Position numbers and translations under genes: made by a program. DNA of 26,547 bases, taken from a virus. Shown here in pieces: positions 8,506 to 26,546 of the stretch; the stretch's first letter is position 1; the number at the start of each line of letters is the position of its first letter. The stretch lies in IMG/VR virus record IMGVR_UViG_3300042520_002148, positions 1 through 26,547 of that record; one strand, 5' to 3'. The notes under the pieces were generated by a model. That model had not been told where the DNA came from. It made no database searches and saw only the letters and a list, made by a program, of their open reading frames with translations.

Positions 8506-8513
8506 TATTTATA
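8506..8513 (-). promoter_or_regulatory. T4-type late promoter for gp18
   Basis: There is an exact TATAAATA on the minus strand, 49 bases upstream of the gp18 ATG. It overlaps the stop codon of the terminase C-fragment, so sheath and tube can be expressed independently of the packaging genes. Confidence 0.8.
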
Positions 8514-9708
8514 AATTTTGCTTCTCCAAGTCTCTTTCTCCGAAAAAGGAACTGAACTCGTCTCTTTGTTTTTGGTCTAACATAGTTGGCATTTCATTTA
8601 TAATAATATCATCTTCTTCATTTCCAGAAGAATATATCCCAAACGGAAGCATTTCTTCTTCTAACATATTTTCGTTTTGCTCAAATATTCTTTTCCTAAT
8701 ATCCAGATCAGTAATTTCTTTAAAATAATGTTGTGTGGAAAGCCACGAGAAAAGAACGCAGCACATAGCTAAGTCATCATTGCCGCTTTCAGCCTCGTAA
8801 GAATTCCCTTTTTGAGAAAATCTTGACAACTCATAGATAGTTTCATAGTCTTCTATGATAAACTTATCAGACTCAACAAGAGTTTTGAGCGTAGCACAGC
8901 CGATTCTCTTAACCTGTTTTGTTGTCCGAATGCCCCTATGAGTTGAGGTGGCAAATCCACCCGAAAGAGATTGGCCCGCTCTTCCAGAATTAGCAGTAAC
9001 TAGAACGCCTTCGTATTCTAGATCATGATGCAGGATATCAGCAACCTGTTGGCCAATATCGTTAGTCTCCACCAACACCAAAGCGTCATTATATCTTTTT
9101 GCAGTTTCGTATATGATATTAGGATATACTAGAGGACTGATCAGGTTGTTCTTAAAAGTGCAGCATATTTTATATGGGAAAGTGTTGACATTCACAACAA
9201 TAAACGCTGAAGAGTCTTCTCCAACTCCTCTGGCCGTGTCTACAATGATGGCATAGATAACATTTTTTTCTGGCGGGTAATATTCTTTCAATCCTATTTT
9301 ATTGTTGATTGTTGGCGTTTTGTGGACCATTGCTCGAAGTTTTGTGGGGTGGATGAGAGTATTTGCCGAACCTAGGAATTCACAGTTATGAGAAACAATC
9401 CCGTTTGTGTAATATTCAAAATTTGGCACGCCAACAATATCATAATAAGTGTGCTCACCTTCCATGAGTTCAATGTGGTATATTCCAACCAAACCGTTTT
9501 TTGTGATAACCTTGTTTTCTGTTTTTAATCTTGAACACTCAATCCAACCAGAATCGGTTAATATGTTATGTTTAGGAGCACAAACCAAACGATTACCATT
9601 ATTTAAAACGAGTTCCATTTTACCACACTTCACAACCTTTTGCACACCAGCAAAATTTTTAAATCCGCTTGGTGTTAAAATTTCAAAATCTTGGTTCTTA
9701 TAGAACAT
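8509..9708 (-). CDS. gp17: Split large terminase gp17, C-terminal half fused to C-intein
   Basis: This 399-aa fusion has two parts. Residues 1-108 are the C-terminal part of a split intein. Residues 109-399 are the nuclease half of the T4-like large terminase. The terminase part starts with CEFLGSANTLI. It carries candidate RNase H-like metal-binding acids Asp157 (AIIVDTARG), Glu214 (LVLVETNDIG) and Asp311/Asp312 (SGNDDLAM). The first two are 57 residues apart, the same spacing as T4 D401 and E458. It cuts concatemeric DNA once trans-spliced to the ATPase half encoded at 10260-11183. ATG 9708 overlaps the endonuclease stop by 11 bases and has AGGA 8 bases upstream. The spliced protein would be 267 + 291 = 558 aa, versus 610 in T4. 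Confidence 0.95.
   Translation of the reverse strand: MFYKNQDFEILTPSGFKNFAGVQKVVKCGKMELVLNNGNRLVCAPKHNILTDSGWIECSRLKTENKVITKNGLVGIYHIELMEGEHTYYDIVGVPNFEYYTNGIVSHNCEFLGSANTLIHPTKLRAMVHKTPTINNKIGLKEYYPPEKNVIYAIIVDTARGVGEDSSAFIVVNVNTFPYKICCTFKNNLISPLVYPNIIYETAKRYNDALVLVETNDIGQQVADILHHDLEYEGVLVTANSGRAGQSLSGGFATSTHRGIRTTKQVKRIGCATLKTLVESDKFIIEDYETIYELSRFSQKGNSYEAESGNDDLAMCCVLFSWLSTQHYFKEITDLDIRKRIFEQNENMLEEEMLPFGIYSSGNEEDDIIINEMPTMLDQKQRDEFSSFFGERDLEKQNL
9385..9708 (-). other. C-intein (IntC) of the split TerL intein, 108 residues
   Basis: This is coding for residues 1-108 of the C-fragment. It opens MFYKNQDFEILTPSGF, close to what I remember of the AceL-TerL C-intein. Block B is NGNRLVCAPKHNILTDSGW, with His47 as the conserved His. 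Block F is around YYDIVGVPNFEYYTNG and block G is IVSHN followed by Cys+1. The usual TxxH of block B reads A-P-K-H, so the Thr is replaced by Ala44. All splicing blocks except A are in this fragment. The terminal His-Asn and the +1 Cys (codon 9384-9382) are intact, so it should be active. Confidence 0.92.
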
Positions 9709-10270
9709 TGCGTTTTCCTGTTATTATGTTGTATATCTGTTTGGCTGTTACATTATATTTAACAGAAAACGTCTTACTAAAAGCTGTTTCATATGATATG
9801 ATTTTTCCATTCTTGCTTTTTGTGCCAGCCTCTTTTATTTTTTGTTTTTTATTATATTGAGTTATTATTTCTTTACATTGTTCATCTGTTATCTTTAATG
9901 GAGAAAATCTTCTACCTTTTCTGGATACTTTAAACTTTTCAATTGTTTCTTCAGAAAAACATCCTTTTTTGTTTTTGTTCCAAGGAATTGTTCCTTTTTT
10001 GGCTCCACCAACACCAGGTCGTTTTTTTCCTTTTTGTATTTCTGACATATAGTTTGGCCCAAGACCAATTCTTTTTCCTATCAAAGCGGCTGCCGCCCAA
10101 TCACCTTGTTTAATGTGTATATCAAGATGCTCAAAAATAGAAATACATTTTAAATTATCAATAGAATTATTTTTTCTATTTCCATCTATATGATGAATTT
10201 CATACCTAAATCCATATTCATCAACTGGTATTTCGCCAAAATGCGATTCCCATATTTTTCTATAATGCAT
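9698..10270 (-). CDS. Free-standing HNH homing endonuclease with NUMOD3-like and HTH segments
   Basis: This 190-aa protein contains an N-terminal HNH motif: YEIHHIDGNRKNNSIDNLKC at 23-42, with His26/His27, Asn34/Asn35 and Asn39. Then comes a NUMOD3-like DNA-binding stretch (WNKNKKG then SEETIEKFKVSRKGRR, about 97-121). The C-terminus (about 126-188, ending KYNVTAKQIYNIITGK) looks like a helix-turn-helix. It probably cuts intein-less terL genes to spread the element. I place the start at ATG 10270 because GGAG lies 7 bases upstream; an upstream TTG at 10294 in the same frame is less likely. It overlaps the N-fragment by 11 bases (10260-10270) and the C-fragment by 11 bases (9698-9708). It is richer in Lys, Asn and Ile than its neighbours, which fits a mobile gene. 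Confidence 0.92.
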   Translation of the reverse strand: MHYRKIWESHFGEIPVDEYGFRYEIHHIDGNRKNNSIDNLKCISIFEHLDIHIKQGDWAAAALIGKRIGLGPNYMSEIQKGKKRPGVGGAKKGTIPWNKNKKGCFSEETIEKFKVSRKGRRFSPLKITDEQCKEIITQYNKKQKIKEAGTKSKNGKIISYETAFSKTFSVKYNVTAKQIYNIITGKRNVL

Positions 10271-11183
10271 TATTATTCTCCAAAGAATTAACAATCATAT
10301 TTATAAATTTATTGATTGTTAATTTCTTGGTTTTTCCTGTTTTTTTGTTTCTAACTGTTATTTGTGTTTTTCCGTCAACACACTCGTGTTCCTGCCTGAA
10401 TAGATCCTCAGAGGTGTTCGCAATGGTTTCTTCTTTCCACTTTTGGTCTCTTCCAGGAACCTGAGACCAGTGCACCTCAACTCTTTTATAGCTGTTTCTG
10501 CCTTCTTCTGATTCAACCCAGATCTTGTAAAACAGTTCCATACCTTTTGGCGTAGAGGTCATTACCAGCTGGGTTGTTTCACCCGAAGAAATAGTAGGAT
10601 AAACTGATGCGAAGAATTCTTCCTGTATATTCCTCTCGACGTGGGCAAATTCGTCCAAATATACGCATGAATAGGTATCACCACGAGCAGCGGAGGATGA
10701 GGTAGAAGTAGCCACAATCTTAGAGCCATTTTCTAGCTCAATGTTACCTTTGTTCCATTCAGTAACACCTTGCTGCATCCACTGTGGGAGGTTTTCGAAC
10801 ATCTTTTGGATTCTATCCAGGATTTCTCGGGCTTTTTTGTCTTTGTTGGCCAGAATAGCCACGCTATAATGCTCGTTGAAAAGAACTCGCCAAAGAATAA
10901 ATCCAGCAGTTGTGGTTGTTTTTCCGACCTGACGAGGCATCTTACAGATAACGAATCGGTTATCTGAATAGGCACTTATCATTTCTTTTTGGAAGGGATG
11001 CAGTTTAAAGTTTACAAGTCCACGGTCAACGTGGATAATTTTACAGTAAGTTTCAATAAAGTAAATGGCATCTTCTTTACACCTGATCATTTCACGAATA
11101 CGATCTGGCGTCCACTCTATGGCAATGTTAGATTTCTTTAGTTTTTTATTGCCGAGGTAAGAAGTTTTCTTTGCTGGTTGCAT
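10260..11183 (-). CDS. gp17: Split large terminase gp17, N-terminal ATPase half fused to N-intein
   Basis: This is a 307-aa fusion. Residues 1-267 are the packaging ATPase domain of T4-like gp17. The Walker A-type loop is MPRQVGKTTT (82-91), Walker B is VYLDEFA (174-180, acids Asp177/Glu178), and the coupling motif is TSTPKG (209-214). Residues 268-307 are a 40-residue N-intein beginning at Cys268, directly after RQEHE. Alone it lacks the nuclease domain, so function requires trans-splicing to the product of 8509-9708. ATG 11183 is one base after the gp16 stop (TAGTATG), so the two terminase subunits are translationally coupled. The N-extein ends about 49 residues before the first nuclease Asp, near the ATPase-nuclease hinge. 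Confidence 0.95.
   Translation of the reverse strand: MQPAKKTSYLGNKKLKKSNIAIEWTPDRIREMIRCKEDAIYFIETYCKIIHVDRGLVNFKLHPFQKEMISAYSDNRFVICKMPRQVGKTTTTAGFILWRVLFNEHYSVAILANKDKKAREILDRIQKMFENLPQWMQQGVTEWNKGNIELENGSKIVATSTSSSAARGDTYSCVYLDEFAHVERNIQEEFFASVYPTISSGETTQLVMTSTPKGMELFYKIWVESEEGRNSYKRVEVHWSQVPGRDQKWKEETIANTSEDLFRQEHECVDGKTQITVRNKKTGKTKKLTINKFINMIVNSLENNNAL
10263..10382 (-). other. N-intein (IntN) of the split TerL intein, 40 residues
   Basis: This encodes Cys1 through residue 40 of the intein. Block A is CVDGKTQITVRNKKTGK with catalytic Cys1, followed by a Lys/Asn-rich tail. No block B is present: it lies in the C-fragment. Typical split inteins have an N-part of about 100 residues carrying both A and B. 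The short N-part resembles AceL-TerL, whose N-part I recall as about 25 residues. The last 15 codons double as the promoter and ribosome-binding site of the endonuclease gene. Confidence 0.9.
10298..10305 (-). promoter_or_regulatory. Late promoter embedded in the N-intein, ahead of the endonuclease
   Basis: There is an exact TATAAATA on the minus strand, inside N-intein coding sequence and 28 bases upstream of the endonuclease ATG. That spacing matches the gp22 (29) and 116-aa gene (29) promoters here. It would allow transcription of the endonuclease and terL-C separately from gp16 and terL-N. Confidence 0.65.
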
Positions 11184-15168: not shown

Positions 15169-15518
15169 TATTCATCCGTATCAGGTTTGGGGGGAGCCCA
15201 AGGAAGCTCTTCTTCTTTTACTTCTTCAACAACATTTTTCTTTTGATCAATTTGTTCTTGAATTTTTTCTTCGACATGATCTTTGTATCCACCAACAACT
15301 TGATCTTTAATCCAACCAAGAACCATCTCTTCTGTTAGATCTTCATAAGCTGTAAAGTTTTCCCCTTCTGGCGCTTTAAATGGAGTGGCCCCGTTGAAGG
15401 TTCCAGAATTTCCATCCTCATCAGTGCCAGTAAGCTCCCAATAAGTTTGAATAACAACATTTTCTAGATTACCAGAATTTGTTTTCTTGAGAGACTTAAG
15501 TTTCCAGGTATATATCAT
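15168..15518 (-). CDS. Conserved small protein downstream of tail fibre (116 aa)
   Basis: This 116-aa protein has a beta-type N-terminal half ([33 protein letters not shown]). [15 protein letters not shown] follows at about 60-75. The C-terminus is charged and helical, with a Pro-rich end (PWAPPKP). The pattern 'W..T..D.. ... DLTEE.V..W.K' is one I associate with small uncharacterised proteins next to tail-fibre genes in T4-like cyanophages. It overlaps the 1929-aa fibre gene by 4 bases (ATGA-type). A late promoter at 15547-15554 lies 29 bases upstream, inside the end of the fibre gene. It could be a fibre-assembly accessory factor, which is inference. Confidence 0.78.
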
Positions 15519-18500
15519 AATTTCTCCTTTATCATTTGTTCTAATCTATTTATATGAGCTTGCTGTTCTTTGATTGCCTGAACAAGATATGCTATCAGTC
15601 CTCGTTCTCTGAGGGATAAAGAACCATCGAAATCTCTGACGAGATCTGGAATAACTTCCTGGACTTCTTGGGCAATAAAACCAACATCATTCACAAGATT
15701 TACTTGTGAGTTTTGTGGGGTTTCCTCTTTCCAGTCAAATGTAACTGGACGAAGTTTTAATATTTTATCTAGTGCATTAGGAAGATCTTGAATATTTTCT
15801 TTGAACTTCCTATCTGATGGTGTTCCGTATGCAGTAATGTTTGCAAGGGCTATGAAGTTTCCGCTAGAGTCAAAAGAGAAATGGTTGGTCGAGCCGTTAT
15901 TACCAGACATGTAGAGAGTTCTACCATTATCTACATAAAGTCTAAAGCGTTCTGCACTAGTTGCGTTAGCAAATATCAGATAAGAAGTGTTTGTGCCACT
16001 AGAATATATAGATAGCGCCGAATATCCATTTCTTGCAAATAAATATTGTTGGGCGTTTGTGAGTCCATAAGTGTATATATTTTCGCCAGCTTCGTTATCT
16101 AAGATTAGTGTGCCACCATCTTGAAACTGAATATATCCGTTTCTGGTATTATTTGCTCTTCTCCACTCATAATATGGATTAGCAAATTTGGCACTTGCTG
16201 GATTGTTAAACACCATATTATAAACTTGTGATGTTGATGCAGGATCCAGATAGTAAGAAGTATTATTACTGTCATAAAATATTGGAGAACGCATATCAAC
16301 GTTAGCAGTTACATTCCCAGAAGAGTTTACTGAAAGTCTTACTGTGTTAGCTGTAGCAAAAGAAATAGTTCCGTTTGAGTCGGTTCCAAAAAGCATGCTT
16401 AATGAAAGACCATTACCATTTCCAGCCCACATGTTCCAAGTTAAATTACTAGGATTGCTTGTTGTGCTATAGTTCCAATAAAAAGATGTTCTTGGAAAAC
16501 TATTTTGCGCGCTTGCATTAGTAATGACGTCAGGTGGCGTCCAATGATAACCTATCCAGAAAGGAGAGTTAGCGTCTAAACCGCCGACATTATTAATGTC
16601 CATACGAACATTGTTGTCTTTTTGAAATTGAGCATAACCTCCAGTGAGATATAGAGCGGCAGTACCAGCTCCAGCTGTATATCTGCCTCTAATTACGCCG
16701 TTAACATCTAGAGTATAATCTGGAGTTACTCCTCCTACGCCAACTCTTCTGGTAGAACCTGCCACACGAAGATTTTCATTATATGCGCTTCCCGACCAGT
16801 TTCTTATAACCAGATCGTTACTTTCTCCTTCAACCGCAACGTTTGGAGTTCCATCTGTACTGGAGTCAGTGGTAAATGCTACTTTTCTCGTTCCACCAGT
16901 AAACCAAGCGTCGCCGTTTGCCCATATTACACCCTGTGGTACCGATGTAGAACCACCAAGTGCAAGGTTTGCAAACACAGAAGTTCCTTGAGGATCTGCG
17001 CGATATGCAGTGTCCGCAGTATCATAAAATACAGGGGCTCTCATATCAACACTGGCAATTACGTTGCCACTATTGTTAATTTTTAATCTTTCAGTTACGC
17101 TTAATGGACCAACTGAAGATCCACCCGTACCAAAACTTAATCCTTCGTTATTATTTCCATTAAATTGTATGTAAGCGTGCCAAGTTACATCAACTAATTG
17201 TTGCAATCTCCAGCCAGACGTTGACCAATCACTACCATTACTATTACGAATTTTGAAGAAATTGAGATAATCCGCATTAGATGTAGAAGTTTGTAACCTA
17301 AGAAGTAGCTTTGTATTGCCTTGAGTTGTGCCCAGAGAAGAATCATTTGCATGAATTCGATAATCTGCACTTGTTGTGCCAGCACCAATACTTCCTGCAA
17401 AAATTCCGGAAGTAGTAGAGTTTGATGGATCAATATAATATGCTGTATTGTTACTGTCATAAAATATTGATGATCTAATATCAGGGGCGTAAAACACTCC
17501 TGATGGATATGTCTCAAATCTGCTAAGACCAGCTGTACCATCGTACAGACCAATCATATCATCACTGTCTCTGCCAAAAATATATGCGTTTCTTCCAGTG
17601 AATTGCCATTGTATAGTTTTCTCAGCGCTTGCGGAGTTAAAGTTAATATTTCCAAGGAGACTTAAACTAGTCCCAGTTGATGATGGATCAACGTAATATC
17701 CTGTATTATTAAGATCATAAAAAATATTTGCTCTTACCGAAGAATCGGTATAAAAACCGCCTCGTATTGTTCCGCCATAAGCATAATAAAAATTATTCCC
17801 AGCATAATAATTAATATATGTATCTAGACCAGAAGCAGCATCTATGTGCAAATTACCGTTTGTTGTCGCAACACTAGCATAAGAAGCACTGGCGTGACCA
17901 TCTGTTCCTATTGACAGATATGCAGACCAGGAAGTATTTGGTCCAAAAAGAGCACCACCTCTCATCCGTAAAGCTGTATTTGAGGTGCTGGCAGGATCTA
18001 TATAATACGATGTGTTGTTGCTGTCATAAAAAATTGGAGCGCGGAGAGAATCTGTAGCCTGTAAATAGTTGCGATTAGTAGTTATAATTCCAAGATGATC
18101 AATTGTTAATGCAGTTTTAGAGCCTGCTGCAAACGAATCCGTGGTAGCCAAATACATTTTAGTGCCATATGAACCAGAAGATTGAACATAGACACCAGCC
18201 TGTGCACCACTAGCACCCCAACCCCATGTTATTGCTTGAGCATTATCAGCAGTAGCTTGTCCAGTAAAATTTAATTGATATTCAGTAATACCTGGTGTAG
18301 TAGTATTGATCGACTGGGATCCAGAAGGAATATTAATTTTATTAATTATTGATGTACTTGCTGGATCAACGTAATATCCTGTATTATTGCTGTCATAATA
18401 TATTGGAGAGCGTATATCAACGCTGGCAGTTATGTTGCCCGAAGCGTTAATTTCCATTCTTTGTGTATTTGTGGTACCAAATAAAATCGAGCTATTGTCT

Positions 18501-21304
18501 TTATTAAACAGCCTTAATCCACCGCTAAATCTTAGTTCTGTTCTATCATTAGCAACAGCATCGGTAAGATTTAAAACAGTTGCAACGTCAAATCTTGTTA
18601 ATGCACTACCTGATCTTCGCACAGTAAATTGATAACTGCTAGCCGTAAATGCATCATTATAAACAACAAGATTTAGTGTAGAATTTCCTGCTTCAAATCT
18701 CCAGTTTTTCTCATTGGTACCTGCATCAACATCTCTAAGATCAAAAAACGGATAGTTGGATGTTGAAATAAATCCAGCATCTGAAGTTTTGTTTACTTGC
18801 ACATATGGGGAATAAACATCTACTCCAGTAACAGTAGTTCCAGAACGATAAAAATTCATAGCTATTGTTTCAGAGTTATAGGCGTCATTTACTGCACGTA
18901 AACTAAGCGTTCCTCCACCATCACCAATCATTCTCCATCGTTTTTGATCTGTCGTAGCATCATTCTCATACCACTCAAAATACGGAGCATTAGAGTAGGC
19001 AGCAAATTGTTGTGCTAATAAACTACCATTAGAATCCCGAACAGCTACAGTATTAACAGTTGTGGATGTTGAGGTATTATAACCATCCAACAAGTCTGCA
19101 TCTAAGCCAGAACCTGCACCATCATTGCCAGAATGCCACATCAAGTTAGAGGTATTGTTAAAATAAATAGCTCCTGTTCCTGAGTAGATTAATGAGGTAG
19201 AATTAAAAGCTCCGCCCAATATAGCCGAAGCATTGCCTATTGCAACTGAAGTAACACCGCCATATTGAACAGAAACATAAGAACCTCCATTAGTTCCAGA
19301 ATTGTTACCATTAACAATAATTCCAGCCTCAGAAGTAGCTCCTGTTCCAAACGTTTGACTGCCTGTGATGGCTAAACGAGCAAATCCAGACGAATTAATG
19401 CCATCTAACAAATCAGCGTCTAATCCAGAGCCTGAGCCATCGTTGCCAGCATGCCAGACTGTGCTTCCGTTCACTTTAAAGGCTTTTCCAGAAGCTAATT
19501 CTATACCAGTGCTATCAAAATATCCTAGGCTAGAAGGGGTTGATCCATCAGGACTAAACAAGAAATGCATTCTTCTGGTGCCCGAAATCTCAACAGGAAC
19601 AAATCTTAATTTTGTTCCTACTGTATTATCAGTCAGGTCAAACAAATTGCTGTTTGTGGCCATTTGAATATTTTGTGTTCCGCTCCATGTATTAGTACCA
19701 TTCAACAGAGGAATAGTACCACCAGAAGTTCCTATGTTATAACCGTCCAACAAATCAGCGTCTAATCCAGAGCCAGATCCATCGTTCCCAGCGTGCCAAA
19801 TTAAGTTAGAGGTTCCTGCATATAAAACGCCTGCATTCGTCATTCTGAAACCAGTTGAAGCGTTTGAAGCTCCATAACGTATATCAAAACCCCAAGTTCT
19901 TGATCCTAACCACGAATATGCTCCATCTCCACCAGAGACGTCAAGAATTGATTGAGAATTGCCAACAGTTAATCCAATACTGTTTGCTCCGCCATTAGTA
20001 ATTGTTTGCGTAGCACCCCACGTATTAGTGCCATTCAGTAGAGGAACTGCTCCACCAGAAGTTCCAATATTATAACCATCTAATAAATCTGCATCTAAGC
20101 CAGAACCTGATCCATCGTTCCCAGCGTGCCAAAGTTTATTGGAATTTATAAATGGGTTGCCAGAAGAATCAAACTGAAGCCATGCAGTCGCGCCACGATA
20201 TAATATAAGTTGATCCGCGTCTGGTTTTCCTATAGCCCAATCGGTACCTGAACTATAAAACCTTAAGTATGCTCCATTTGATAAAGTTAGTGGGTATGTT
20301 ACTGTGCCATATGTGTTTACGCCGCTCCAAGTATTGTTTGTTCCAAGGATGCTCGCGCCCGAAGATCCGGTGAAACCGATATCGCCCTTTGATCCAGTAA
20401 ATCCTGTCGAGCCAGTGAAACCGATATCGCCCTTTGATCCAGTGAAACCGATATCACCTTTAGATCCTGTTAGACCAACAGAACCAGTGAAACCGATATC
20501 ACCTTTAGATCCTGTAAATCCTGTCGAGCCAGTAAATCCTATGTCACCCTTTGAACCAACAAAGCCGACAGATCCAGTAAATCCAGTGGGTCCTGTGGGT
20601 CCTGTGGCACCTAACGAACCTGTAAATCCATTAGAACCCGTAAATCCAGTAGGACCAGTTGGGCCAGTTGGGCCTGTTGCTCCTAATGAACCAGTAAAAC
20701 CGATATCTCCTTTAGATCCAACAAAACCGACTGATCCTGTGAATCCAGTAACGCCTTGTATTCCCTGTGATCCTGTAAATCCTGTGACGCCTTGAATACC
20801 TTGAGAACCTGTAAAACCAGTAGCTCCTTGAGGTCCAGTAGGGCCTGTAGGACCAGTAGCACCCAGCGAACCAGTAAAACCAGTTACTCCTTGAATGCCT
20901 TGAGATCCGACAAATCCTGCAGATCCAGTAAATCCAATGTCACCCTTTGAACCTGTGAAACCAATGTCGCCTTTAGATCCAACAAATCCAACAGAACCAG
21001 TATAACCAAGTGGGCCTACCTGCCAAGATCCATCACCTCTTAGCCATGTTGTTGTGTTGGCGGTTCCAGAACCAAGACGAGCAGTGCCTACTGTTCCTGT
21101 GCTGATATTAGTGGCGTTAAGTTGGGTTAATCCTGTACCAGATCCGACGAACCCAGTTGCGTGGACATTTCCGGCAAACGTTACTGTGTTTGCAATTGTT
21201 GTTGATACTTCAACAAAAACTGTATTGTTTGCATTCGAATCAACGAAATTAATGTTAGAAGTTTGTAGTCCATTTTTGACTACAAATTTTTTATCATTTG
21301 CCAT
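15515..21304 (-). CDS. Giant tail fibre/spike with collagen-like stalk and S74 chaperone
   Basis: The order of domains in this 1929-aa protein is as follows. An N-terminal virion-binding segment (1-96) contains [19 protein letters not shown] collagen-like stretch of 74 uninterrupted Gly-X-Y triplets spans 97-318. A region with four HAGNDG...LDADLLDG repeats spans about 390-740. A long beta-rich shaft with six FYDSNNT..YY.DP repeats spans about 960-1690. A C-terminal intramolecular chaperone domain (S74 type) spans 1830-1929. The S74 catalytic dyad would be Ser1830 and Lys1835 in SDRKFKENI. The domain trimerises the shaft and then cuts itself off. The N-terminus is typical of phage fibres, but which T4 fibre it replaces cannot be told. 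A late promoter lies 36 bases ahead of ATG 21304. Confidence 0.93.
15518..15817 (-). other. Peptidase S74 intramolecular chaperone domain
   Basis: This encodes the last 100 residues of the 1929-aa fibre. SDRKFKENI carries the Ser nucleophile (TCA at 15817-15815) and the Lys five residues later. LRPVTFDWK and [16 protein letters not shown] are the standard S74 core segments, and a C-terminal coiled coil follows. Cleavage is expected just before Ser1830, releasing the chaperone after trimer folding. Confidence 0.92.
15547..15554 (-). promoter_or_regulatory. Late promoter inside the fibre gene end, ahead of the 116-aa gene
   Basis: There is an exact TATAAATA on the minus strand within the S74-domain coding sequence. 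It is 29 bases upstream of ATG 15518, the same spacing as the other late promoters here. Confidence 0.65.
16240..18420 (-). repeat. Six-copy FYDSNNT..YY.DP protein repeat in the fibre shaft
   Basis: Six copies of R(S/A)[15 protein letters not shown], spaced unevenly (roughly 260-740 bases), mark joints between shaft segments. The fifth copy (near 17030) has diverged to [13 protein letters not shown]. Such motifs recur in fibres of T4-like phages. Confidence 0.85.
19080..20135 (-). repeat. Four-copy [14 protein letters not shown] fibre repeat
   Basis: Four copies of [19 protein letters not shown] (one with WHSGNDGAG), about 330-340 bases apart, each start a fresh beta-rich block. It is a common tail-fibre motif and a likely site of recombination between fibre genes. 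Confidence 0.85.
20351..21016 (-). repeat. Collagen-like repeat: 74 uninterrupted Gly-X-Y triplets
   Basis: Residues 97-318 of the fibre are a perfect Gly-X-Y run. The frequent units are [18 protein letters not shown] and GATGPTGPT. Proline is found only in the X position, and Thr, Ser, Lys or Ile dominate position Y. A triple helix of about 222 residues per chain would make a stalk roughly 60 nm long. That length is my estimate from standard collagen rise. Confidence 0.95.
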
Positions 21305-21339
21305 TCCGGTTCCACTTTCCCCAGTTAAGCCGTTTTTTA

Positions 21340-21347
21340 TATTTATA
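21340..21347 (-). promoter_or_regulatory. T4-type late promoter for the collagen-like fibre
   Basis: There is an exact TATAAATA on the minus strand in the 57-base gap, 36 bases upstream of ATG 21304. Confidence 0.8.
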
Positions 21348-21361
21348 AAGTCTTTTTTCTT

Positions 21362-21574
21362 TTAAGTGTTATATTGTTTTGAATAACTCTCGGCAGCTTT
21401 TGACATCACAAACTGCACATATTCTTCGTCAGTAGCCAGTAGTGCTGGATTTGGAACCTGTTCACCCTGCTCGTTCGTAACTGTTGCGCCAACAGAAGTA
21501 TTGTAGGCTTCTCTGGCTGCTGTGATTCCATCAAGGTGAGATTCGTCTTCAATTGTAACTGTAAAGGTTGTCAT
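21362..21574 (-). CDS. Small conserved phage protein between fibre genes (70 aa)
   Basis: This 70-aa protein begins MTTFTVTIEDESHLDGITAA and ends YVQFVMSKAAESYSKQYNT. Two amphipathic helices are likely (13-25 and 50-68), joined by an NEQGEQVPNP linker. I recognise the pattern (TFTVTIED, ITAAREAYN, FVM.KAAESY.KQY) as a small protein that recurs beside tail genes in diverse phages, but I know no function. It starts 10 bases after the upstream fibre stop and has TAGGAG ahead of ATG 21574. Confidence 0.78.
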   Translation of the reverse strand: MTTFTVTIEDESHLDGITAAREAYNTSVGATVTNEQGEQVPNPALLATDEEYVQFVMSKAAESYSKQYNT

Positions 21575-21584
21575 TTATATTCTC

Positions 21585-24500
21585 CTAGGCTATTAATAAC
21601 ATTTCTGAAGTTTTGTATTGGGTAGAGTTAGTCGTAGTTCTTGTCGCCATCAGCCTGACATTTCCTGCTGATATATCCACATCATATGTAGCTAATGCTG
21701 CAGAGCCTGTAAACACCACACCATATTCGGTAGATGATGCTGTGGTTCCATTGTGGGCTACCAGTAGTTCAGATATTTGGACTTCGCCAGTGACAGAGTC
21801 GTAAGCCTGGACCATTAGTTTACCAGAACGGAAAGAAGCAGAAGCGAAAGACGCAACCTGAGTTTTGGTTGTTGTTGCCAGAGTTGTAGCTTCTGATGTC
21901 GTTACCAAATTTGTATTGTGTGTAATCTGAGAAGCTGTCAACGGAGCATCTGCAGAATCGTCTGCAAGACGAACATTAATTGCTGTTCCGTTGCGTTTTA
22001 AGGCAGGGAAGCTGGATGTTGAGCCGCTGAAACGCATGATAGGGGTAGTTGCGCCCAATGAAAATGTTGCGTTTGCGGAGCTACTAGCAAAAGCCCATAG
22101 TGTATTAGTATTGTCGGCGTTGTTGATGTTAAGCGTGCTAATTACGCCGTTTGTCAACTTTGTATCTGTACCTACAATAACTGACGTTACAAAATACCCT
22201 GTTCTAGGTCTATTTGCGCCGCTTGCGCCGATGTCATATGTGTTGTCTGCATGAGCTAACATATGACCAGTAGATGTTACTCTCCAACGATCAGTATTAT
22301 TTGTACGAATATAAAAATCTGAAGTGCCCGCAGTACCAATTTGCAGATCTCTGCTTGTTCCTGTTCCTGCTCGCTCAGTTAAAATTTGCAGTGTATTCGA
22401 AGTCCAATTAATTCCAAGACGTTCGTAGTTACTCGCATCCGTAAATGTGTTATAAGATTTCAACGTTTGAGCAGTCGTAGCTGTACGAAATTCCGTAGTA
22501 TTTTGTCCTGATGTTACCAGAGATCCTGTTGTTGCTTCATTATTGATAGTAATATCTGCAATTCCAGTTTGTATCAATCTAAGATTAGATGTTGCTCCAC
22601 TTGGAACAGTAGCTCTAAATCCACTATTATCAATTAAACTATTATAAGTTGAAGATGTGCCTCTGTAAATATCGCCTGCAACAGAAAGTTTGTGAGTTGG
22701 CGCAGTGTTGCCTATTCCGACATCGCCTGTTGTGTTTTTAATAGTAATTGCAGTGGCTGTTCTTGGCCTAATAAAAATGTCACCGCCAGTTGACGCTACT
22801 GTATCAAGATACAATTCAGAGGTTGCGCGAATACCGCTACCATTTATGACTGATAAACTTGCACCCCCAACACCCTGAAACACAATATTATCACTAATTG
22901 CGTGTAAAGCCGCCGAAGGTGTTGTTGTGTTAATACCAACTCTGTTATTTGTTGCGTCAACAAAAAGAACACCCGAATCAACGTTAACGTTACCAGATAT
23001 TGTTTGTAGAGTTCCGGAAAGAGTTGCATTTCCTCCAACCTGTAGTGTAGAAGATACGTTAGCAAATCCAGTAATCGTAGTATTTCCAGTTGATAGAGTG
23101 GTTAGAGTACCAACCGAAGTCAGCGAAGAGCTTACAATCCCAGTTCCCAGAGCAGTTGAGTTAACAACAACAGCACCATTAATCTGATAGCTCTTGGTTG
23201 AAACAAGATTTAGATGCTCTGAAGAAGTCCAGGCATCAGTCGCATCAACCCAATTAAAGGTTTTGTCTGTCGCGCCTTTGAGAGTGATACCACCACCATC
23301 TGCCGTCACATCACTTGGTGTGGTTACGTCTCCGAGAACAATATTCTTATCTTCAACAACAAGATTTGTTGAGTTGACGTTTGTGGTTGGTCCATTGAAG
23401 AACACGTTTCCAGAAACAACAAGATCGCCAGTAATCGTGGTATTTCCGAATGTTCCGGAGCCTGTTGCAATGCTGGAAGAGTTGATAACTGTGTTAACAG
23501 TTGAGTTGCCAATTTGAATCACAGAAGTATTGACGTTGACATTAGACCCAACGTTCAGAACACTGGTTACATTAACTGTTGCAGGAAGTCTAGCAGTGTT
23601 TAACGTGCCCGAAGAAATATTATCTGCGTTTGAAGCGAACGTAGTAGCATTCGAGTAAGCCAGAGCAGCGTTGCCTGAGTATGCAATAGCGTTACTGTAG
23701 GCTGTTGCTGCATTGCTAGTAATAGCAGTATTAACGTTTACTCCATTGATCGTAATAGTAGCAGCACTTATTACAGTATTGATGGTAGAGTTACCAATCT
23801 GTATTGTTGAAGTATTGACGTTTACGTTAGCTCCAACATTTATCACAGTTGAAACATTAACTGTTGCTGGCAATCTAGCAGTGTTTAGAGTGCCAGAAGA
23901 AATATTATCAGCGTTTGCCGAGAAAGCTATTGCGTTAGCATAAGCCAGAGCCGCATTTCCTGAATAAGCTATGGCATTAGAGTAAGCTGTCGCCGCGTTG
24001 CTGGTGATAGCAGTATTAACATTGACACCATTGATTGTTATTGTGGCCGCACTGATAACAGTATTAACAGTGGAGTTTCCGATAAACAGAGTAGAAGTAT
24101 TGGCATTAACATTGGAGCCAATATTGAAAGCTGTTGATACGTTTACGGTGGCTGGCAGTCTAGCAGTGTTAAGCGTTCCTGATGAAATACTATCAGCGTT
24201 GATTGTTGTTATGTTGCTTCCGTTACCGCTGAAGCTATTTGCTGTGATAACGTTAGCTTGGAAATTAGCTATTCTGAAAGAAGCATTGCTGGTGTCAATA
24301 TAAGCGCTTGCGTCAGGCTCAGGAGTATAGCTATCAAAAACTTTCCAGATGCCATCAGTTGCATCGCGGAAGAAACCAGCATGTTTGTAAGAACCATCAT
24401 TATAGTTTCCGGCAAATCCAAGATCAGGATTAGAAGTTGTTGATCCATCGTTAAGATAGATCATGTTATCTTCAACAGCTAAATTTGTTGCGCTGATGGT

Positions 24501-26546
24501 AACAGTTGTTCCTGAAACAGTCAGGTTGCCGTCGATCTGAACGTCACCTCTAATAGTAACGTTATTGGCAGCAAGATTAGAAACAACGTTGGCGCTTGCA
24601 TTAATCGTTAGATTTCCGTTTAGAGTTCCGCCAGACAATGGCAGGAACGTGGAATTTACATAAGTGTTAGAAGCAGCATAAGCAGTAGCGTTTGAATAAG
24701 CCGTAGCAGCCTTTGCATCTGCATAAGTAACAGCATTAGAGTAGGCCGTAGCAGCGTTTGAAGTGATAGCTGTGTTGACATTAACTCCGTTAATGGTGAT
24801 AGTTGCAGCGCTTATAGCGGTATTGACAGTAGAGTTTCCGATAGACAGAGTTGTTGTGTTAAGAGAAACGTTCGAACCAACAGTAACAAGAGCAGAGTTT
24901 ACGCTGACGCTTGCATTGACAAATCCAGTTACGGTCAGGTTTCCAGAAGTAACTGAATTGAGAACGTCTAGAGTACTGCCGAAATAAACGTTGCCGTTTA
25001 CTGATAATTTGTGGGTTGGTGCGCTGTTGCTTATACCAAAATTACCCGTGTTAGAAAATCCAGCAAATAAAACTGAACCATTACTAAATTCCACTGGAAG
25101 ATCGCTTGTTATCCACTCAGAAGAAACCACCCCTCTTCTTGCTCCGCCACTACTTGCAAATATAACAGATCTTTGAGATCTAGAGGAGCTCGAACCAATC
25201 ATCACAATATGATTGGATACAGATACACCACCAGCCCCTAAGTCTGATCCGCTATAAGTTCCAAATGATCCATATCCAGCAACAAACACGTTGCGCGGTC
25301 TTGTGGCATTGCTCGCGCCGATGTCGTAGGTGTTGTCAACTTCCGCCGTCAGGTGGCCATTGGAATTAACACGCCATCTAACTGTCCCAGCGGACATAAA
25401 CCCAAGATTTGTTCCAGACCCATTGGAGCCGATGATAAGGCTTCGCGCAGCTCCTGTGCCTGCCGCAAGCGTTTCCACAAACGCTGTGTTTGCAGACCAT
25501 AAGATGTTTAGCCGCTCATAATTGCTCGAGTCAGTGTATGTATTGTAAATCCTAAACGTTTGAGCGTTCGTGCCCCGCCGCTGGGCGAGGATGTCTGCTG
25601 CATCACGAGCAAGAACAATATCATTAGAGGAACCCAAAGAGATAACACTAGTGTTTGATGTTGCTCTAAAATTTTGCGCTGCATAAACTGTGGCTGCTGT
25701 TATACTTGTATATCCACTATCATCGGCAAGTCTTACATCTATCTCAGCGCTATTGCGCTTGAGAGCGGGGAAACTTGAGGTTGTGCCACCAAACTGGAGA
25801 CGGTTGAAGTCTGTTGAACCGTTATTGTATAATCCTAAAACTCCATCACTTGGAGAAAGAATTCTGCTTCTTCCATTAAATATAAATGTTCCTGTGGCCC
25901 CAGCAAAAAAATTAGCTGCAGTTACAGTATCGCCGACAGTTACGTTTGTGCCAACATAAACGTTTCTTGGCCTATTTGCTCCATTTGCGCCGATGTCGTA
26001 GGTATTATCTGTTGCTGCCGTGAAATGACCACTACCATCAACAATCCAGCGATTGTTTGAGCTACCTGTTTGTAAAAGTACCTGAGCTCCTCTTACAGCA
26101 AAGTTTCTATTAGAACCAGTTCCTGCTGCTTCGTATCCAACAAATCCTAAATTATTTTCAGTAGCAGAAAGCACAACTCGTTCATAGTTGGAAGCGTCAG
26201 TGTATGTGTCATAGACTCTAAGAGCTTGGGCGTTTGTACCATTGCGTTGCGCCAAAATACCAGCAGCATCTCGAGCTAGAATGGTGTCAGCACTAGAATA
26301 TGACGATGTTGCATTTCCCCACGATATAATCGCGTCAGACTTTAAAAATGCCCCATATTGCGAGAACCAAGCCCGACCGCCAGCCAGATATCCATCATCA
26401 GAAGCGGTAACAATACCAGCTTTGGAAACCTTAAATTTGCTGCTTCCGCCAACTTGTAGATCCATCAACAAACTATTACTGTTAGAAGCAGTATCCGTCG
26501 CATTGATTTTAAATGCGGTAAATGTATTGGCGGTCGCATTCCATGT
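21585..26546 (-). CDS. Long tail-fibre protein, N-terminus beyond the right edge
   Basis: The frame is open to the window edge, so 1653 residues are visible and the true start lies outside. The TTG at 26471 is not the start, because the 25 residues upstream (ATANTFTAFKINATDTAS) continue typical fibre text. The shaft is built from modules. One is SNYERL...RWRV...NTYDIGA.GANRPR (at least three copies). Another is a set of 95-residue repeats (NISSGTLNTARLPATVN to TITINGVNVNTAITSNAATAYSN). Two others carry ATNLAVEDNMIYLNDG and STNLVVEDKNIVLGD. The C-terminal 120 residues (from about ASQITHNTNLVTT) form a distinct end domain. No S74 domain is present. The role is probably a long or side tail fibre. 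Confidence 0.88.
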   Translation of the reverse strand, partial: TWNATANTFTAFKINATDTASNSNSLLMDLQVGGSSKFKVSKAGIVTASDDGYLAGGRAWFSQYGAFLKSDAIISWGNATSSYSSADTILARDAAGILAQRNGTNAQALRVYDTYTDASNYERVVLSATENNLGFVGYEAAGTGSNRNFAVRGAQVLLQTGSSNNRWIVDGSGHFTAATDNTYDIGANGANRPRNVYVGTNVTVGDTVTAANFFAGATGTFIFNGRSRILSPSDGVLGLYNNGSTDFNRLQFGGTTSSFPALKRNSAEIDVRLADDSGYTSITAATVYAAQNFRATSNTSVISLGSSNDIVLARDAADILAQRRGTNAQTFRIYNTYTDSSNYERLNILWSANTAFVETLAAGTGAARSLIIGSNGSGTNLGFMSAGTVRWRVNSNGHLTAEVDNTYDIGASNATRPRNVFVAGYGSFGTYSGSDLGAGGVSVSNHIVMIGSSSSRSQRSVIFASSGGARRGVVSSEWITSDLPVEFSNGSVLFAGFSNTGNFGISNSAPTHKLSVNGNVYFGSTLDVLNSVTSGNLTVTGFVNASVSVNSALVTVGSNVSLNTTTLSIGNSTVNTAISAATITINGVNVNTAITSNAATAYSNAVTYADAKAATAYSNATAYAASNTYVNSTFLPLSGGTLNGNLTINASANVVSNLAANNVTIRGDVQIDGNLTVSGTTVTISATNLAVEDNMIYLNDGSTTSNPDLGFAGNYNDGSYKHAGFFRDATDGIWKVFDSYTPEPDASAYIDTSNASFRIANFQANVITANSFSGNGSNITTINADSISSGTLNTARLPATVNVSTAFNIGSNVNANTSTLFIGNSTVNTVISAATITINGVNVNTAITSNAATAYSNAIAYSGNAALAYANAIAFSANADNISSGTLNTARLPATVNVSTVINVGANVNVNTSTIQIGNSTINTVISAATITINGVNVNTAITSNAATAYSNAIAYSGNAALAYSNATTFASNADNISSGTLNTARLPATVNVTSVLNVGSNVNVNTSVIQIGNSTVNTVINSSSIATGSGTFGNTTITGDLVVSGNVFFNGPTTNVNSTNLVVEDKNIVLGDVTTPSDVTADGGGITLKGATDKTFNWVDATDAWTSSEHLNLVSTKSYQINGAVVVNSTALGTGIVSSSLTSVGTLTTLSTGNTTITGFANVSSTLQVGGNATLSGTLQTISGNVNVDSGVLFVDATNNRVGINTTTPSAALHAISDNIVFQGVGGASLSVINGSGIRATSELYLDTVASTGGDIFIRPRTATAITIKNTTGDVGIGNTAPTHKLSVAGDIYRGTSSTYNSLIDNSGFRATVPSGATSNLRLIQTGIADITINNEATTGSLVTSGQNTTEFRTATTAQTLKSYNTFTDASNYERLGINWTSNTLQILTERAGTGTSRDLQIGTAGTSDFYIRTNNTDRWRVTSTGHMLAHADNTYDIGASGANRPRTGYFVTSVIVGTDTKLTNGVISTLNINNADNTNTLWAFASSSANATFSLGATTPIMRFSGSTSSFPALKRNGTAINVRLADDSADAPLTASQITHNTNLVTTSEATTLATTTKTQVASFASASFRSGKLMVQAYDSVTGEVQISELLVAHNGTTASSTEYGVVFTGSAALATYDVDISAGNVRLMATRTTTNSTQYKTSEMLLIA
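23500..24190 (-). repeat. 285-bp tandem repeats in the upstream fibre gene
   Basis: Matching landmarks recur at exact 285-base steps. TCTAGCAGTGTT (third copy near-identical) starts at 23589, 23874 and 24159. GAAGTATTG starts at 23524, 23809 and 24094. Each copy encodes 95 residues (SSGTLNTARLPATVN, INGVNVNTAITSNAATAYSN). A fourth, more diverged partial copy lies near 24700-24850. Confidence 0.85.

Follow-up and report, generated by a model that had tools for sequence, protein, structure and literature searches.

The question raised by this locus is what kind of element divides its TerL gene, and how the divided gene could still serve the virus. The window, by which we mean the whole 26,547-nucleotide stretch of IMG/VR virus record IMGVR_UViG_3300042520_002148, is a 26.5-kb sequence whose minus strand carries T4-like structural genes; its TerL is encoded in two open reading frames (ORFs), TerL-N (11183-10260, minus strand) and TerL-C (9708-8509, minus strand). 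We consider that the locus is probably a mobile, fractured intein cassette: a split intein broken between its blocks A and B, with a homing endonuclease gene lying between the halves.

The element is delimited to the base by an empty allele. In L003, a syntenic relative with ~80% nucleotide identity, a 998-bp insert (9385-10382, minus strand) is precisely missing: TerL there reads RQEHE-CEFLGS, and the alignments to the window end at 10379 and 9384. A sequence-only reading of this DNA had placed an intein at 9385-10382 with parts of 40 and 108 residues, and because exactly this interval is missing from L003, those coordinates and counts prove base-exact. All of the following features lie on the minus strand. 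The 267-residue N-extein, which is the ATPase half of TerL (10383-11183; Pfam Terminase_6N, E 2.8e-27), runs into the 40-residue N-terminal intein half (IntN, CVDGKTQITVRNKKTGKTKKLTINKFINMIVNSLENNNAL, 10263-10382), which holds block A (CVDGKT..) and the first helix and is closed by a stop codon at 10262-10260. The 108-residue C-terminal half (IntC, MFYKNQDF...CAPKHNIL...YYTNGIVSHN, 9385-9708) holds blocks B, F and G, and is followed by the 291-residue C-extein, the nuclease half, whose first residues are CEFLGS (8509-9384; Pfam Terminase_6C, E 3.4e-11). Between the halves lies a gene that the sequence-only reading had passed over, encoding a 190-residue HNH endonuclease (9698-10270; Pfam HNH_3, E 4e-12). 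It overlaps both TerL ORFs, with its ATG before the TerL-N stop and its own stop after the TerL-C ATG; the HNH and TerL-C starts each have a Shine-Dalgarno sequence (GGAG and AGGA, respectively). All three ORFs are intact, and identical, in two more contigs (L082 and L084).

The break was proposed to fall between blocks A and B, and alignment bears this out: none of blocks B, F and G lies outside IntC, and contiguous relatives (a single ORF of 132-147 residues) align across the break, their first 28-37 residues corresponding to IntN and the remainder, including block B, to IntC. No block B-like sequence was found in the window's IntN by alignment to five such relatives (L146, L156, L170, L121 and L102), and on gp41-1, which has 128 residues, the match of the IntC profile starts at residue 29. 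The window intein has the class-1 residues: Cys1, His47 in block B, Asp90 in block F, His107-Asn108 and Cys+1. Among 48 IntC sequences, His47, His107 and Asn108 are invariant and Asp90 nearly so. The suspected kinship to the TerL inteins AceL-TerL and GOS-TerL is upheld by matches to their consensus, CatN/CatC (PDB 6dsl), through which alone these two inteins were compared: a profile of 27 IntN sequences finds CatN (6dsl_A) at E 3.8e-10, and a profile of IntC relatives finds CatC at E 2.7e-28. In single-sequence searches, the window's IntC with a few C-extein residues matches CatC (6dsl_B, phmmer) at E 1.6e-14 and VidaL at E 2e-4; the 40-residue IntN alone gave no match in the PDB, and a profile is needed. 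A break after the first helix is termed S2 in the literature, where AceL-TerL and GOS-TerL are the known cases (PMC13014065). By these sequence comparisons, the window intein is a member of the AceL/GOS-TerL family, broken at the S2 site.

The class to which it belongs was thought to be small. The break is real, but the class, although known in kind, is far larger than was assumed, since TerL inteins broken at the same place number in the dozens in IMG/VR and isolated phages. Relatives of the window intein were found by tblastn in 100 of 50,697 phage records, from phages whose hosts include Escherichia, Yersinia, Campylobacter, Vibrio and Shewanella, and are encoded in at least 222 IMG/VR stretches. 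Some of the tblastn relatives occupy other TerL sites: Walker-B in Yersinia phiR1-RT, Thanatos-2 and G2494, and Walker-A in others. Among the matches listed, ~57 distinct inteins occupy the same TerL residue as in the window and can be read on both sides, and ~50 of these are split there. A separate endonuclease ORF stands between the halves in 29; a GIY-YIG enzyme is fused to IntN in six and an enzyme is fused to IntC in one (Vibrio phage Va1); ~14 are split with no enzyme found; the remaining seven are contiguous, none of them with an enzyme. This tally was made by script and by eye, and the relatives are not independent. In four loci (L106, L115, L123 and L150), the IntN and IntC ORFs share one frame with one stop codon between them, which makes a split by a single stop or, possibly, allows readthrough. 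In L124 (3950-6241), a different TerL site, close to the C-terminus, holds an additional intein; its long insert was judged by eye to be LAGLIDADG-like.

Two other traits that had been taken to set this intein apart do not do so. Its N-part is not unusually long: IntN spans 28-56 residues (median 32.5) in 30 split relatives, and that of GOS-TerL has 37 residues and can be cut to 27 (PMC11766414); natural short IntN are given as 15-37 residues (PMC13014065). The basic, Asn-rich tail has another origin. The IntN core comprises approximately residues 1-30, and the tail, VNSLENNNAL, is not conserved in the IntN alignment; it is read from DNA that probably serves the HNH gene as its control region. 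The tail DNA (GTT AAT TCT TTG GAG AAT AAT AAT GCA TTA TAG) contains that gene's Shine-Dalgarno GGAG (10278-10281, minus strand), 7 nt before the ATG, and the start codon itself.

Three further elements converge on this region. The first is a T4-type late promoter core, TATAAATA (10298-10305, minus strand), 35 nt before the HNH start and inside the IntN coding sequence. This motif occurs seven times in the window, always on the coding strand and 31-83 nt ahead of gene starts, and is absent from the window's opposite strand; the other six copies, at 21347, 15554, 12478, 8513, 3654 and 782, precede minus-strand genes. Within 110 nt after IntN codon 22, it is present in 14 of 28 loci with a separate endonuclease ORF versus none of 25 others (Fisher p 2e-5; background 0.03 per segment). 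The second is a predicted RNA hairpin of 17 pairs (10280-10330, minus strand; -15.4 kcal/mol, z -4.35, 0/200 shuffles); its loop contains the promoter, and its 3' arm takes in some of the Shine-Dalgarno sequence of the HNH gene. A transcript that begins immediately downstream of the promoter would be without the 5' arm, and is predicted to fold at chance level. Across six relatives, 86% of the hairpin pair cells are kept and five pairs are changed on both sides, while none of the slid controls exceeds one two-sided change; in L083, for instance, one Leu codon has changed synonymously from TTA to CTT, and the opposite arm has changed to match. Fold prediction and covariation thus support a hairpin that hides the ribosome-binding site on long transcripts only.

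The third element is a partial copy of the homing site: TGTTAATTCTTTGGA (10279-10293, minus strand) agrees with the start of the C-extein, TGTGAATTCCTAGGT, at 11 of 15 positions (p ~0.02 for the window alone). DNA following the IntN core resembles the first C-extein codons (C-E-F-x-G) in many loci, mostly 83-101 nt from the intein start, with matches of 13/15 in L111 and 12/15 in L130 and L115. Summed across 21 loci, the match comes to 212, versus a mean of 170 (maximum 188) for other C-extein 15-mers (0/5000), a figure that is somewhat favourable since this group was chosen after the pattern had been seen. In an unselected set, 14 of the 28 loci with a separate endonuclease ORF reach p 0.05 on their own, versus 2/19 and 1/6 in the other groups. 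We regard the copy as a candidate operator, or else as a footprint or relic of insertion.

The latter possibility extends to the whole region: site copy, hairpin and TATAAATA might together be the footprint of the arrival of a homing gene and not a working control module. We hold this to be the less probable of the two interpretations, yet a serious one. Two split loci that have no endonuclease, L115 (3347-4558) and L138 (3986-5176), with TerL-N upstream, keep a clear site copy right after IntN, at the same offset, apparently as relics of a lost homing gene; moreover, the 5' arm of the hairpin doubles as coding sequence. Against a mere footprint stand the compensatory changes in the hairpin and the presence of TATAAATA after IntN codon 22 in half of the loci with a separate endonuclease ORF and in none of the others.

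Another key observation concerns the enzyme itself. The HNH protein matches phrog_12324, an intron-like DNA endonuclease (E 4e-21), and is one of three catalytic types that we find at the A/B break, the others being GIY-YIG and DUF559/MTES_1575 (Vsr/EDxHD-like). Its residues ~122-190 form a 69-residue C-terminal domain associated with the TerL site. A hidden Markov model built from the C-terminal part of the HNH members finds the GIY-YIG enzymes (E 1e-31 to 5e-6) and none of the DUF559 type. Against the 50,697 phage records, at a cut-off of E 10, the domain has 13 matches; ten are credible, and all ten are in TerL genes of Vibrio phages that carry this intein. In scans of the collection by the HNH protein or the C-terminal domain, every locus with the full domain carries the TerL intein (12/12); L182-L187, which are without the TerL intein, match the HNH part only. 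Scans with single C-terminal-domain sequences gave few loci. Since the domain is common to the HNH and GIY-YIG enzymes and, in these searches, is credibly matched only at this TerL intein, the simplest reading is that it is a target-recognition domain, which would have stayed in place while the cutting domain was exchanged. In L111/L112 and L119, ORFs ahead of IntC combine NUMOD3 with this C-terminal domain; no recognised nuclease domain was found in them (L119 was scanned).

The HNH gene might instead be a passenger: a homing gene that once stood free, had its target elsewhere and came to lie in a loop of the intein, in which case the intein would be split but not mobile with HNH. The resemblance of the HNH half to I-TevIII-type enzymes found elsewhere fits that proposal, as does the occupation of the same slot in relatives by dissimilar, DUF559/EDxHD-like enzymes. 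We nevertheless think it unlikely, given that the C-terminal domain goes with this TerL site, where both HNH and GIY-YIG enzymes have it, and that a copy of the homing site lies upstream of the HNH gene.

Evidence for movement comes from the distribution of the insert. In a tree of TerL C-exteins, made by a quick method, four close carriers each stand beside an empty allele (window-L003, L002-L018, L004-L015 and L083-L006). Between the window and L083, nucleotide identity is 85%, 75% and 77% for IntN, HNH and IntC, versus 72% and 66% for the exteins, and synonymous divergence is 0.64 for HNH and 0.72 for IntC versus 0.85-0.88 (saturated) for the exteins. Bearing in mind both this greater likeness of the insert and the pairing of carriers with empty alleles, the sequences favour transfer. 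The ratio of nonsynonymous to synonymous divergence (dN/dS) is 0.11 for HNH where measurable, which indicates purifying selection, and ~0.05 for IntC between the window and L083.

Such values are hard to reconcile with a decayed element, in which the intein no longer splices and either TerL works as a pair of non-covalent subunits or the virus itself is defective. There is a precedent of a sort: a nucleotide reductase put in pieces by a homing gene is cited, in PMC10448857, as working without rejoining, and splicing in the window is itself predicted from sequence. However, every catalytic residue is kept, IntC is under the constraint just described, and the three ORFs are unbroken in L082 and L084; we judge decay to be quite improbable. 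That the insert is a group I intron or another RNA-spliced element can practically be dismissed: there are phages in which TerL is interrupted by an intron with a homing gene (ICP1, PMC10448857), but no Rfam intron match was obtained (the only matches were two sub-threshold ones to microRNA models, on the hairpin) and both ends of the insert encode conserved intein halves.

We hypothesize that the fractured cassette operates as follows. TerL would be made as two proteins, on which IntN and IntC would associate into a complete Hint fold; trans-splicing by the class-1 route, with Cys1, Cys+1 and cyclisation of the terminal Asn, would then yield one intact packaging ATPase-nuclease. The HNH protein would act as the homing endonuclease and would recognise, by its C-terminal domain, a TerL site that has no insert, so that in a mixed infection the cutting of intein-free TerL would lead to the copying of the whole 998-bp insert. 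Expression of the HNH gene is likely to be late: on upstream transcripts the hairpin would hide its ribosome-binding site, and those starting from TATAAATA in the hairpin loop would be free of the 5' arm. Finally, the partial homing-site copy may allow the enzyme to repress itself, as I-TevI does.

Several points weigh against this account. At the level of sequence, the anatomy, the family, the exact insertion, the patchy distribution, the purifying selection, the hairpin covariation and the promoter placement are demonstrated, whereas splicing, cleavage, timing and repression are what we infer from them. The patchy distribution fits repeated loss equally well, and no clear rise in flank identity towards the insert was seen that would mark a co-conversion tract. 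In block B, Ala (APKH) takes the place of the Thr of many other inteins, albeit a substitution that the family appears to tolerate. The site copy of the window, at 11/15, is weak when taken alone, and could be a mere relic or, because it sits in a hairpin arm, partly constrained by pairing.

A different arrangement of intein and endonuclease was observed at the Walker-A site. Four diverged viruses, L192 (2238-4454; the same as L111, 1256-3472), L194 (2205-5351), L206 (2256-4439) and L209 (2268-5069), have an unbroken TerL intein frame there, with a linker of 312-336 residues between IntN and IntC, that is, between blocks A and B. In all four, the same linker DNA encodes in another frame an endonuclease ORF of 281-307 codons, over which the intein frame is stop-free for ~280-306 codons. 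When the endonuclease codons were redrawn at random from their synonyms, the intein frame acquired 15-31 stops on average and never zero (0/2000 per locus, with two codon-usage tables); because zero stops are what we observe, selection appears to keep the linker frame free of them.

Elsewhere in the window, positions 15515-26546 (minus strand) encode two very large, repetitive tail-fibre-like ORFs, the first of 1929 residues with collagen-like GFTGS repeats and the second of more than 1650 residues, open at the window end.

Taken as a whole, the family leads us to lean towards a broader proposal: that the A-B stretch is a second recurrent home for homing endonucleases, with three families present in TerL inteins, where they break the gene, are joined to one of the halves or are overprinted (the last in some relatives at the Walker-A site), and where the separate genes have a control region built on a copy of their own target. 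A 2019 paper placed all intein endonuclease domains at one conserved site and argued that random invasion should give others (PMC6801210); the TerL family offers natural endonucleases at another site, in many variants for comparison, and suggests two ways in which an intein may accommodate such a gene, a break in the chain and overprinting. The family is also a source of dozens of natural short-IntN split inteins that could be used to label proteins, and its control logic, in common with that of intron homing genes, offers a link between the two kinds of homing gene that can be tested. As far as the literature searched goes, the A/B-position endonuclease, the putative recognition domain shared across nuclease types and the predicted I-TevI-like control region within IntN are new.

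The closest known systems are AceL-TerL and GOS-TerL, with which the window intein has in common the TerL host, the S2 break after the first helix, a short IntN, the class-1 residues and profile matches for both halves. It differs in that its IntC is 36% identical to CatC in alignment, in having Cys1 where GOS-TerL has Ser1, and, as far as the CatN/CatC comparison goes, in a 40-residue IntN whose tail holds the predicted control region of the gene between the halves. VidaL and PolB16 OarG likewise combine a short IntN with a long IntC, but are broken earlier, after strand 2 (S1), with an IntN of 15-16 residues; of these, VidaL has only a weak sequence match to the window's IntC. Fractured genes, in which split inteins have an endonuclease gene between them, were reportedly described by Dassa et al. 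in 2009. The window resembles that type in that both host gene and intein are in two pieces, which an endonuclease ORF separates; however, since its break precedes block B and does not fall at the usual endonuclease site after it, we class the locus, with its HNH enzyme, as a variant and not as a standard member. Its control region finds its nearest parallel in I-TevI, where a homing-site-like sequence overlaps a late promoter and is used for autorepression, and where early transcripts have their ribosome-binding site concealed in a hairpin (PMC2988022): a late promoter, a predicted ribosome-binding-site hairpin and a partial site copy all lie upstream of the HNH gene here. The HNH half matches phage genes annotated as intron-associated endonuclease 3, but in contrast to both I-TevI and I-TevIII, the HNH gene of the window resides in a split intein and not in an intron, and its product carries a different C-terminal domain.

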